Under the pieces are notes generated by a model that saw nothing but the letters and a program-made list of their open reading frames with translations, had not been told where the DNA came from and ran no database searches. A stretch of DNA of 64,000 nt. Origin: Amyelois transitella. Lineage: Eukaryota > Arthropoda > Insecta > Lepidoptera > Pyralidae. The DNA is taken from positions 5,952,001-6,016,000 of the forward strand of contig NC_083513.1 of assembly GCF_032362555.1 (NCBI RefSeq), written 5' to 3'. Position numbers and translations under genes: made by a program. Below are positions 2,515 through 12,878 of this stretch, in pieces; position 1 is the first letter of the stretch; each line of letters opens with the position of its first letter.

Positions 2515-2679
2515 TCACCATCTTCCAGGCCCATGAGGTCCCGGTCTGTGGTGAGGTGGGCCTTGATGGTGTGGGCCATGGTGTGGTGGGCCGTGGTGGG
2601 GAGGCCCGTAGTGCGGTGGACCATAATGAGGTGGACCACAATGCGGTGGACCCCAACAACAAGAAAAAAGGAGCCCCAT
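2515..2679 (-). CDS. Small Met-Gly, His/Pro-rich protein with two PPHY motifs
   Basis: A 54-residue protein in one coding exon. It begins MGLLFSCCWGPPH, then repeats the unit GPPHY/GPPHH with variations almost to the end. The second-residue glycine followed by two cysteines at positions 7-8 is the layout of an N-myristoylation and palmitoylation site. PPHY occurs twice, fitting the PPxY ligand motif for WW domains; the dense histidines could also bind metal. A splice acceptor (ATATTTTCAG) ends one base before the ATG, as in three other cluster members. A plausible polyadenylation signal is the AATAAA near 2389 on the minus strand. It shares only the Met-Gly/Cys start and PPxY with the others, so membership is likely but not certain. 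Function unknown. Confidence 0.62.
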   Translation of the reverse strand: MGLLFSCCWGPPHCGPPHYGPPHYGPPHHGPPHHGPHHQGPPHHRPGPHGPGRW

Positions 2680-2739
2680 GCTGAAAATATTAAAAATATG
2701 TAGTAAATAACATTAAAACATAACCCTTTCTCTGCAGTG

Positions 2740-3005
2740 GAGTAAAAACATCAGAGTAATGGGATTCATCAACTGTTTCCTATGAATGTCGTATAAGGCG
2801 TCTTAGGGAATAGGCTTCTTCATTGAGTGCAGATATTACCATGATCCAATACGAGTATGACTTAGGTTTCCCTGAAAAGGTTGCGGTGGTCAGACTGAAG
2901 TCGATTCGTGTAAACCTGACCTAAACAAACCAGGCTCATGGTCATAAAGTACATCCAGGTTTGAGGAGGAGAGGTGAGGATGTGATCGGGATTTACGCCA
3001 GGAGG
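2740..3005. repeat. Degraded SINE-like element, second subfamily
   Basis: Contains the same head as the main SINE-like family (TTCCTATGAATGTCGTATAA then a TTAGGGAATAGGCTT block) joined to a different body with GGTTGCGGTGGTCAGAC and a CGTGTAAACCTGACCT block. The same body recurs at about 43065-43220, and a weaker copy of head plus body at about 24123-24300, so this is a dispersed family. Confidence 0.55.
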
Positions 3006-3568
3006 AAAAATAAAGTGGCCAAATGCGAGTCGCGCACAAACGTACCTATGTATAAAAAAATTGCTTTTCTTGTGTGGTAGCCTCCGTTTAGTAAATAATC
3101 TATTTTTATTTTGAATTTCAGTTTAAAAAATCTGTGAAAATTTAAAGCCACTACATACCTGTAACTATTATTAATATTGAGAAAAAATACCAAAACAACA
3201 ATTCATTGCATGGGGAACCCCTTAATATTTTCATTTTTAGTATTTTTTGTATGGAGGCAAAAAAAATTTGTCAAAATGTCAGTTTTCTTGCTATCACGGT
3301 TTATGATATACAGTCTGGTGACAGACGGGAGGACAGACAGACAGCGGAGGCTTAGAAATGGGTTCCCATTTTTACCTTTTAGGTACGGAACCCTAAAAAC
3401 ATCCGATAATTACTTTACCTAACACCCACTTAATCTACTTATGTAAAGGTTAACTGTCAGATAATACATTTAGTATTAAGTCTGGACATAGTATCAATAT
3501 TGTTGGTACTATAAAATTTAAGTAAATAATAAGTTTATAGTAGTTTTTCGTTATATTCGGGTCCTGTA

Positions 3569-3673
3569 ATGAATGTGGATGAAGCGAAAGAAGTATGCAG
3601 GGATCGTGGCAAGTGGAAAGATGTGTCTTTACCTACCCCTCCGGGAAAAAGGCATGATTTATGTATGCATGTA
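3569..3673 (+). repeat. LINE 3'-end fragment
   Basis: About 100 bp nearly identical to the longer fragment at 40913-41140. It holds the end of a reverse-transcriptase ORF ([16 protein letters not shown] in the better copy), then TACCCCTCCGGGAAAAAGGC and an ATGT-rich tail. It is 5' truncated. Confidence 0.65.
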
Positions 3674-10300: not shown

Positions 10301-10905
10301 GATTGAAAATGATGAATTTTGACTTTGGAGAAAATGCACCCCATGGTTGCTACAAAAAATAATAACACAAAGTTAACCCTAATAGCAAGACGTTCCTGTT
10401 AGAAAGCCTAGCTGGCTAAGGAAAGAATGTCTAATTTTCCAAATCCAAACTAATTATTAGATAGTTAAAACTTACAACAAAAACCTTAAATCAATACCTG
10501 TAGAAGTTCATAAACTAAATTATGATTTATCTAGGTAAATAAACATACTTATAATAGTTTGTGTCGCGAAAAGTTTTGTTTAGTCCAATTAATTTTCGGT
10601 ACGTATGTTGATATCCCATAAGCCGGAATAATATAAAACAAGAGAAATACCATATTGTACCTACTTGTAATCTGTGCAGTTGTAATAGTCAGAATTCTGT
10701 GCAGAATCTGACGAAACTGTTTGGTGCCACGTCACATTCACCAGTAGGTAGGTACTTTACCACTTCTATAGTCTTACATTATTCCGAATTCTATTATTAA
10801 CCAGAGGTAACTGCCTGCCAGCAATTTAACGATCTTCATAGTAAATTGATCGACAAAATCATGTACCTAATAACGTAAAAAACATCCTTTTAACAACAGA
10901 ATATT
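7308..10905. other. Long AT-rich non-coding stretch
   Basis: Contains one SINE-like copy at 8622-8855 and otherwise very AT-rich DNA, mainly 9200-10700, with no recognisable exon. The 67-codon frame at 8828-9031 starts inside the SINE and is not a gene. Confidence 0.4.
8622..8855 (-). repeat. SINE-like element copy 1
   Basis: Read on the minus strand it runs from a degraded GGTTCC head through TAAGGGATAGGCCTGT to GTCTACCCCGCAAGGGATAT and a TATGTA-like tail. It shares its full length with the copies at 14529, 16963, 30546, 32379 and 52004. Confidence 0.75.
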
Positions 10906-11073
10906 CTATCTATACGGAGGTGGTGGCTGGTTGATGATGACTTGAGGCTGAGGAACTGTGGTGACGTGGTGATGGTGCACCACGGCGGTGCGAGGAGGGT
11001 CTCCGCAGCAATCGCAGCAGAGACAGGGGATACAGCAGCAGCAACAGGGACGGCACGAGATGTTACAACCCAT
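10906..11073 (-). CDS. Small Met-Gly, Cys-rich protein with PPPY tail
   Basis: A 55-residue protein beginning MGCNISCRPCCCCCIPCLCC, then DCCGDPPR, a VVHHHHVTTVPQPQ segment and the end QPPPPYR. Twelve cysteines lie in the first 23 residues. It shows the cluster pattern most cleanly: Gly2 for myristoylation, cysteines for palmitoylation, a His/Pro spacer and a terminal PPPY ligand for WW domains. A splice acceptor (CTATTTCCAG) ends one base before the ATG. The closest relative is the gene at 7131-7307, sharing most of the first 50 residues, so the two arose by tandem duplication. The protein could alternatively bind metal through cysteines and histidines. Product function unknown. Confidence 0.72.
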   Translation of the reverse strand: MGCNISCRPCCCCCIPCLCCDCCGDPPRTAVVHHHHVTTVPQPQVIINQPPPPYR

Positions 11074-12569
11074 TCTGGAAATAGAGAAGATGATTTGTTA
11101 GCTTACACGGTCTCGGAAACCCTTGTTTAGTATTTACAGCTTCGCATTAGTTTGATACATACAAACATACATATGGTCACGTCTGGGATAGGTATTAGTT
11201 TGATAGTATTGTAATTTAAAAAAATGCTAATGTAAATTTATTTGTTTGATGTGAAAATTGGTACACATATAGTTGAGACCTTGGAAAAGGACATAGGACA
11301 CTTTTTATTATTCCTACGGAGACGGGTAATTGATTATATGCGAGCGAAGCTGCGGGTGAAAGTTAGTATGCTATTATTTCAAAATAGTGTCAAGATAACA
11401 TGATATTTGGATTCAGGGATGGCTTAGCAGATAAAACAGGAAAACATAAATTGACAAGTTACTTATGAAACATTTTAAAAAAGTATATAAAAACATCATA
11501 AACACTCGAAGTTATGCTTTCACTTCAAGAAGGATATTTAAATCTTGTTTATATCCATGACAATTCGTATAAGAAATTTCTACTATTCATTAATTACCAG
11601 AAAAATAAGGCAGATACTAACCTGGAAATTGCTTTAATTAGAAATTAAATTATTTCATAAACCTTATCGAACGTTTATTTAATCAGTACTCCAGCTTGAC
11701 TTTGAAGGCAGAATACCCTTCGCATTATTTATGTATTTCGATAAAGATAAAACTTTAGATAGGTATATAATTTCATTAATTTAGATAAACAAGATACGTA
11801 GGTTATATTGTTTTTATCACTTTAAGAAGCCACCGCATTATGTAGTGTGTATGACTAACTGATTAGTGTGAATCACGTGAAACATTACCATAAATGACTA
11901 CAATGTAATTGACTGAAATAACATACAACATTCATTATGGCAACACTGAAAACCCCTGTGTTAAAACTCTCAGCTATATTTTTAGTGCTTCTCTTATAAG
12001 AAAACATGTTATAAAAATATAACCAATTGAGTTTATTTGCTTATAATAAACGAAATAATATAGTCTCCTCTCTTTCTGTCTTATCATTGCGTATTTATTC
12101 CCGACTACATCCTCAACTGTTACAATAGCTTATTTCAGGTCTACTAACTTCATGAACGTGACAGTGGTAATACCAGCGCTTCTTGGGGTAGTCCTATTCT
12201 ATTTTGCCAGAAACCACACACACACAATGTCCGTCTATTATAACCAACACTAAAATATCTTTAAAAATTTATAAAAAATGTAAGTACATTTTTATCAACT
12301 CTTTACAAATATTGATTAAAACTTAAACTTTGTACTAAGTGTATAGTTTCCCTTATCAGGTACGTAGCACTTTTATTGAACAAATAAAATTTTACCATTA
12401 ACACAAAAAGAAACGGACTTGTAATACATTTCGACTTACTTTTTCCTGCTTACCTAAACAAAAAAAAAATATAGGTACTAAAGATACGACTATTTTTACA
12501 GTAAGCTTAGGGTCGTCCACTAATAAAAATGATTAAAGTAACCAAAACTCACCTCAACAAGACTAGAGA
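11074..12569. other. Non-coding stretch with repeat stubs
   Basis: Holds a 3'-tail stub of the SINE-like family at about 11157-11193 and a fragment ending GCGAAGCTGCGGGTGAAAG near 11342-11362, which resembles a Helitron-like tail. AATAAA on the minus strand near 12372 could serve another gene's 3' end. No exon seen. Confidence 0.4.
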
Positions 12570-12878
12570 TTATCTTCCTACTGGATACTGTGGGTATCCC
12601 GGCTGCGGATGTGGGTACCCGTGTGGTGGAGGCGGGTAGCCGTGTTCGTAGCCTGGGTACGGCCCTGGCGGCGGAGGTCCGTAGTATCCTGGTGGAGGAG
12701 GTGGCTGCTCGACCACCACTGGCGGATGGTGAACCACGACTGTTTGAGGTGGCTGTTGTTGTTGCCCACAGGCATTCGGACATAGACAAGGAATCAGGCA
12801 GCACGCACCTAACGCCATACAACAAGGATTGCAACAAACGTCGCAATCCCCACAGTCAAACGAAAAGCAGAGACCCAT
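12570..12878 (-). CDS. Met-Gly, Cys-rich N terminus with long Pro/Tyr/Gly tail
   Basis: A 102-residue protein and the largest of the cluster. It begins MGLCFSFDCGDCDVCCNPCC, has a second cysteine group in ACCLIPCLCPNACG, then QQQQPP, VVVHHPPVVVEQPPPPPGYY and repeats of PPGP, YPGYEHGY and HGYPHPQPGY. It contains PPGY, a PPxY form. The open frame extends 76 codons further upstream, but that part is unlike protein, and a good acceptor (CTTTTTTTTAG) lies 11 bases before the ATG of MGLC, so I start there. Composition puts its coding GC well above the neighbouring DNA. It is placed with the other cluster members by orientation, Met-Gly/Cys start and VVVHH-type spacer. A lipid-anchored adaptor is an inference. 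Confidence 0.75.
   Translation of the reverse strand: MGLCFSFDCGDCDVCCNPCCMALGACCLIPCLCPNACGQQQQPPQTVVVHHPPVVVEQPPPPPGYYGPPPPGPYPGYEHGYPPPPHGYPHPQPGYPQYPVGR

Follow-up and report, generated by a model that had tools for sequence, protein, structure and literature searches.

The window analysed here, a stretch of 64,000 nucleotides of the moth Amyelois transitella (C9:5952001-6016000, where C9 is contig NC_083513.1 of an assembly of 327 Mb and 33 contigs), carries on its minus strand a cluster of small open reading frames (ORFs) that begin with Met-Gly. An initial annotation of this DNA had described five of them (g1, g2, g3, g4, and g6 in Table 1) as a local set with a common layout, made up of Met-Gly, a cysteine-rich N terminus and a Pro/His tail, and had read them as membrane-tethered ligands of WW domains. 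All five are present at the coordinates and on the strand assigned to them, and the Met-Gly start is common to all. The cysteine-rich N terminus is not, as g1 has just three Cys. Two members have been added to these five, namely the short ORF g5 and an outside member, which lies beyond the window that the initial annotation covered.

Table 1. Small Met-Gly ORFs of the cluster and their predicted splice acceptors, in window coordinates.
Feature	Position	Strand	Description
g1	2515..2679	-	54 residues, 3 Cys; MGLLFSCC start, then GPPHH/GPPHY tandem repeat
g1 acceptor	2680..2683	-	CAG plus one base abutting ATG; predicted from consensus alone
g2	5402..5608	-	68 residues, 9 Cys; MGFKIT start, RPFCCCFIPCICCKCVC block, PPPAY and FPPPY in tail
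g2 acceptor	5609..5612	-	TAG plus one base abutting ATG; weak pyrimidine tract (6/12); consensus-based
g3	7131..7307	-	58 residues, 14 Cys; His cluster, VVVHQP tail motif, no PPxY; nearest paralogue g4
g3 acceptor	7308..7311	-	CAG plus one base abutting ATG; predicted from consensus alone
g5	10273..10344	-	23 codons; MGCIFSK start; Cys block and tail both absent; TAG resembling an acceptor 5 nt before ATG
g4	10906..11073	-	55 residues, 12 Cys; MGCNIS start, cysteine string CCCCCIPCLCCDCC, His cluster, VIINQP tail motif, PPPPYR at C terminus
g4 acceptor	11074..11077	-	CAG plus one base abutting ATG; predicted from consensus alone
g6	12570..12878	-	102 residues, Met-Gly, 12 Cys within residues 1-37; VVVEQP tail motif, Pro/Tyr/Gly repeat with single PPGY; predicted acceptor 11 nt before ATG; AATAAA 192 nt past stop
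Outside member	-4896..-4759 (C9:5947104-5947241, stop included)	-	46 residues; MGACCSCC start, Gly-rich tail, MVVDQP motif, no PPxY; 4.8 kb beyond window

In g2, an in-frame ATG is found six codons 5' of the Met-Gly, with a likely splice acceptor of weak pyrimidine tract between the two. The status of g5 as a gene is uncertain; judged from its letters it is perhaps a decayed or minimal copy of the family, and its start is one that we take to be Src-like. The inclusion of g1 follows from its position, start and acceptor, and not from similarity of the Cys block. In pairwise comparison within the set, its Cys block gave no significant match to the other members, and only in low-complexity Pro/His sequence did g1 match another member significantly, namely g6 in its Pro-rich tail.

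Sequence relations, clustering and gene structure

The proteins of g2, g3, g4, and g6 are related in sequence. The identity of g4 is 74 per cent with g3 over 57 columns and 47 per cent with g6 over 59 columns (expectation value, E, 1e-18), and g2 matches g4 over 22 columns (E 1.5e-7) and g3 over 12 columns (E 3e-7); these E-values are optimistic because the composition filters were switched off. A tail motif of the form [VIM][VI][VI]xQP is shared by g3, g4, g6, and the outside member, that is, by four of the six proteins formed by the original five and the outside member, and is not found in g1 or g2. At the DNA level, the similarity between g4 and g3 spans positions 11086 to 10916 and 7319 to 7134, respectively. 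It begins at the predicted acceptor and stops 10 bases before the end of the ORF in g4 and 3 bases before it in g3.

Over the 54 aligned codons of g3 and g4 there are 21.3 synonymous differences in 38.1 sites and 19.7 nonsynonymous differences in 123.9 sites, which corresponds to a synonymous divergence (dS) of 1.03, a nonsynonymous divergence (dN) of 0.178 and a dN/dS of 0.17 (Fisher P 7e-6; bootstrap interval of the ratio of the proportions of differences, pN/pS, 0.16-0.45). The Cys block (24 codons; dN 0.036, dS 0.58) has a ratio of 0.06 and the tail (30 codons; dN 0.33, dS 1.59) a ratio of 0.21, all of these values being rough at such divergence and the last few aligned tail codons doubtful. 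The ratio on which the initial annotation had made its reading of this pair depend is thus about 0.17 and not near 1. This shows purifying selection on the two genes, whose Cys block has taken the fewest amino-acid replacements.

The number of such ORFs is well above that expected by chance. Those that start with ATGGG, have at least 40 residues and carry at least five Cys among residues 1-30 number four in the window versus 0.025 expected, and with at least three Cys there are five versus 0.385 (first-order Markov windows, 200 simulations). The scan was widened to the window plus 100 kb on either side (264 kb) with a layout of at least 18 residues, Met-Gly, Ser or Thr at residue 6, a Cys among residues 1-12 and, at most 12 bases upstream, a YAG. 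It retrieved eight ORFs versus a simulated mean of 1.04 (maximum 4), and six with at least two Cys among the first 12 residues versus 0.11 (maximum 1; 200 second-order Markov simulations). Because the layout was fixed after the family had been seen, these figures for the 264 kb describe clustering and are not a clean probability. Seven of the eight ORFs fall in one same-strand cluster of 17,775 bases, from window position -4896 to 12878; among the first 12 residues of the eighth, at 38846, there is one Cys, and a family-like tail was not seen in it by eye. This last ORF aside, the scan of 264 kb met the layout nowhere but in this cluster. The excess over chance, the dN/dS and the similarity among g2, g3, g4, and g6 together bear out the proposal that a local family exists here.

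A YAG lies exactly one base 5' of the ATG in four of the original five ORFs (g1 to g4), an arrangement found at 42 of the 2351 ATGs of the window and at 3 of its 60 other ATGGG sites. The pyrimidine tract at the predicted acceptor ranges from good in g4 (11 of 12) to weak in g2, and g5, the outside member, and g6 have their acceptor-like sites farther upstream, at distances of 5, 9, and 11 bases from the ATG, respectively. Given that an acceptor-like YAG immediately precedes the ATG in four of five cases, a noncoding first exon upstream of these ORFs is likely on consensus grounds. Past the stop codon, AATAAA occurs at 106-209 bases in g1, g2, g5, and g6, and g3 and g4 have no AATAAA or ATTAAA closer than 498 and 611 bases, respectively.

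No family of Pfam-A or NCBIfam was found above cut-off for the products of the original five ORFs, nor any of Pfam for the outside member; one sub-threshold Pfam match of g4, to a plant-virus polyprotein model, was taken as chance. Metallothionein families were absent from the Pfam matches of the five proteins at E up to 10, a search that short Cys-rich proteins can escape. The PDB sequence search gave no match for the five, and Rfam gave none in the window at gathering thresholds. Short peptide patterns retrieved 21 matches for g4 and 17 for g6 in viral contigs, and 118 for g4 in genome contigs, among which no relative was confirmed. These collections being viral and prokaryotic, such misses say little about insects. 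A whole-genome look-up returned g4 and g3 for g4, and only the query itself for g2 and for the outside member; this look-up is insensitive, as g2 missed both g3 and g4, and further paralogues are possible in the 327-Mb genome. In the literature, no paper on this family was recognised among the matches listed, from a coverage that leaves out most subscription journals.

Predicted lipid anchor and PPxY tails

After Met-Gly, N-myristoyltransferase prefers Ser or Thr at residue 6. This residue is Ser or Thr in all six ORFs of the window (the original five and g5), versus 7 of 41 other Met-Gly ORFs (P 1.6e-4), and is also Ser in the outside member, which the scan had singled out by its number of Cys, making seven of seven. 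The PROSITE-type myristoylation pattern, in which residue 3 is not charged, aromatic, His or Pro, agrees with five of six starts, counting the original five and the outside member. The maximum number of Cys per 15 residues is 10 in g4 and g3, 8 in g2, 6 in g6, 4 in the outside member and 3 in g1, so that a dense run of Cys is clear in the first four and weak in the last two. Such runs of adjacent Cys fit palmitoylation. The membrane tether proposed in the initial annotation therefore has more behind it than was adduced there, and the prediction of an N-terminal lipid anchor is well supported by the residues at these positions.

The PPxY motifs listed in the initial annotation are all found (PPHY twice in g1, PPAY and PPPY in g2, PPPY in g4, PPGY in g6, and none in g3). 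The six proteins carry six PPxY in total versus a mean of 0.83 in residue shuffles, and a total of at least six was reached in none of 5000 shuffles. Taken individually, the motif stands out from the shuffles in g2 (P 0.0012) and in g4 (P 0.036), where PPPPY is at the extreme C terminus; in g1 it does so as well (P 0.0064), yet within a 15-bp tandem repeat, and in g6 (P 0.44) its occurrence is what composition predicts. A motif scan of the six proteins found no PPxY in g3 or in the outside member. WW-domain binding as a function of the whole set is accordingly upheld in part: the reading of these tails as WW ligands is good for g2 and g4, weak for g1 and g6, and does not apply to g3 and the outside member. 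Given that PPxY is weak in two members and absent from two, it does not define the family; the predicted tether is the common property, and WW binding would be that of a subset. Recruitment of ubiquitin ligases is a conjecture.

The AlphaFold2 model of g4, built on 5 sequences, has a mean predicted local distance difference test (pLDDT) of 60, a predicted template modelling (pTM) score of 0.15 and a single helix turn of three residues. Its confidence is 46-52 over the first 30 residues, which hold the Cys block, and approximately 80 over the last 15. An unfolded peptide with a lipid anchor would agree with this model, but an alignment of too few sequences could also account for it.

Neighbouring features

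Further along the window, exon-like ORFs on the minus strand at 24799-26804, one of two tested being assigned to Pfam F420_oxidored, resemble pyrroline-5-carboxylate reductase. On the plus strand, leucine-rich-repeat ORFs at 42592-55977 (Pfam LRR above cut-off in two of three) are taken by us as perhaps one large Scribble/LAP-like gene, and a PIF1-like helicase fragment at 17760-18284, identified with Pfam, as Helitron-like. A long retroelement-like ORF at 46492-50238, also on the plus strand, is BEL/Pao-like by eye. An element repeated at 8626-8839 and 14576-14787 in opposite orientation, with 83 per cent identity over 215 columns, is perhaps a short interspersed repeat.

Closer to the small ORFs, C-type-lectin-like ORFs are found on the minus strand at 498-773 and at about -1403 to -1107, with Pfam Lectin_C just under cut-off. 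On the plus strand, from about -17761 to -6730, there are exon-like Pro-rich ORFs, one of which has PPPPYF and HPPVV stretches that resemble the tail of g6, and two ORFs of this region carry DM9 repeats (Pfam PF11901). The Pro-rich and DM9 ORFs are possibly one gene adjoining the cluster. DM9 proteins include an oyster pattern-recognition receptor, according to the part of the source consulted (PMC5712788).

Interpretation of the cluster

The explanation that we consider probable, if by no great measure, is that the cluster is a tandem-duplicated family whose products are acylated inner-membrane tethers; their Pro/His tails vary, and some would recruit Nedd4-type ligases. The initiator Met would be cleaved and Gly2 N-myristoylated, as the motif suggests, and the cysteine-string-like cluster behind Gly2 would be palmitoylated by DHHC enzymes, giving a stable hold on the cytosolic face of the plasma membrane or of endosomes. 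The short and probably unfolded tail, rich in Pro and His, would then present a peptide ligand, which in g2 and g4, and possibly in g6 and g1, would be PPxY, suited to WW domains of the kind that Nedd4-type ligases carry. The tail of g3 and of the outside member may have diverged to another use.

Several observations weigh against this explanation. All of the evidence comes from the genomic DNA of one species, the paralogues do not count as independent of one another, and the tests on residue 6 and on the acceptor were picked after the sequences had been inspected. Phe3 of g2 breaks the PROSITE-type pattern, two of six members have no PPxY and in two more the motif is composition-driven (g6) or repeat-embedded (g1), the Cys and His content also suits metal binding, and the g4 model, with a confidence of about 80 over its last 15 residues, does not read cleanly as disordered along its whole length.

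Metallothioneins and His-rich glycoproteins bind Zn or Cu, and the small proteins could be cytosolic or membrane-tethered buffers in which the Cys block and the His tails bind these metals, PPxY being a by-product of Pro-richness. A run of four His beside the 14 Cys of g3 and the 12 Cys of g4 would suit such a role, as would the Pro/His repeat of g1 with its 12 His, and PPxY is either absent or attributable to composition or repeats in four of the six proteins. Nonetheless, g2 combines nine Cys and two PPxY with no His at all, the set as a whole has more PPxY than its shuffles, and the Pfam search, metallothionein families included, gave no match. Gly2 with Ser/Thr6 should be unnecessary for metal binding, and the hydrophobic residues of the Cys block (IPC[LV]C) would be more at home in an acylated string than in a metallothionein; metal buffering is an unlikely explanation. 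A smaller probability still is given to a single larger transcription unit that would use the ORFs as internal or alternative last exons, in which case Met-Gly is not a start. Four ORFs placed one base past YAG, in identical phase and on one strand, would be expected of it, as would the distant AATAAA/ATTAAA of g3 and g4, but the other four ORFs of the window have AATAAA much closer to the stop, and the retention of Met-Gly with Ser/Thr6 makes most sense at a start. Moreover, the same-strand C-type-lectin-like ORFs lie between g1 and the outside member, and for this reason a single alternative-last-exon transcript was dropped.

Extracellular or cuticular structural proteins rich in Cys and Pro are brought to mind by the Pro-Tyr-Gly repeat tail of g6, which by eye resembles structural repeat proteins; a signal-peptide-like hydrophobic start was not seen by eye in these ORFs, in which Met-Gly is followed by polar and Cys residues, and this identity is quite improbable. 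That the ORFs arose by chance in Pro/Cys-rich DNA deserves hardly any credence for the whole set, and is strongly disfavoured by the four ORFs versus 0.025 in the window, the six versus 0.11 in the 264 kb and the dN/dS of 0.17. The sequences are short and of low complexity, g1 overlaps a 15-bp tandem repeat and g5 has only 23 codons, and for these two taken singly chance may hold.

Comparison with known systems concerns layout and not family membership, and in layout the membrane-bound Nedd4 adaptors and the arenavirus Z protein come closest. Ndfip2, Commissureless/PRRG4 and LITAF, as well as UL56/U24-type proteins, are anchored by transmembrane or hydrophobic segments. The likeness of g2 and g4 to the Nedd4 adaptors among them is that of a small membrane-bound protein with a cytosolic PPxY for WW domains, the membrane link being predicted here; the moth set differs in its predicted myristoyl/palmitoyl N terminus and in having members without PPxY. 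In cysteine string protein and other poly-Cys tethers, adjacent Cys are palmitoylated by DHHC enzymes, and the moth proteins have an adjacent-Cys run of this DHHC-substrate kind, although they lack a J domain and their string is N-terminal, behind Gly2. ARRDC1 has PPxY and a Nedd4 role, and the likeness to the moth proteins would be that of a PPxY protein associated with the membrane, able perhaps to bring in Nedd4-type ligases so that vesicles bud outward; unlike it, the moth proteins, at 55-102 residues, are by size too short for an arrestin domain, and they have no Pfam match.

The portions of the sources at hand describe Ndfip2, Commissureless/PRRG4 and LITAF as membrane-bound Nedd4-family adaptors with PPxY (PMC10611234, PMC5578492, PMC3033906), herpesvirus UL56/U24-type proteins as membrane-bound and carrying PPxY (PMC5849660), and the microvesicle system of ARRDC1 (PMC5617834). 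The arenavirus Z protein has its Gly2 myristoylated and bears late-domain motifs, PPPY among them, and both features function in budding, according to the part of the source consulted (PMC3265294), and the likeness to this matrix protein is in layout alone (myristoylated Gly2, Cys-rich middle, Pro-rich tail and, in some, PPPY). A virus-derived matrix gene was dropped as an origin, the resemblance being one of layout, with no sequence comparison made. It is improbable, though conceivable, that the proteins are minimal insect adaptors for budding or sorting with such a viral-matrix-like layout, in which a lipidated Gly2/Cys anchor leads straight into a PPxY tail of approximately 30-40 residues, possibly for ligase recruitment or outward vesicle release, and the paralogues without PPxY act as competitors.

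If the family is indeed one of acylated tethers, PPxY-based ligase recruitment at insect membranes could be carried out by genes of 55-70 codons that encode no transmembrane segment, and such genes may escape gene callers. With g3 and g4, near-identical anchors without and with PPxY, the cluster would itself provide a natural test of the role of this motif.

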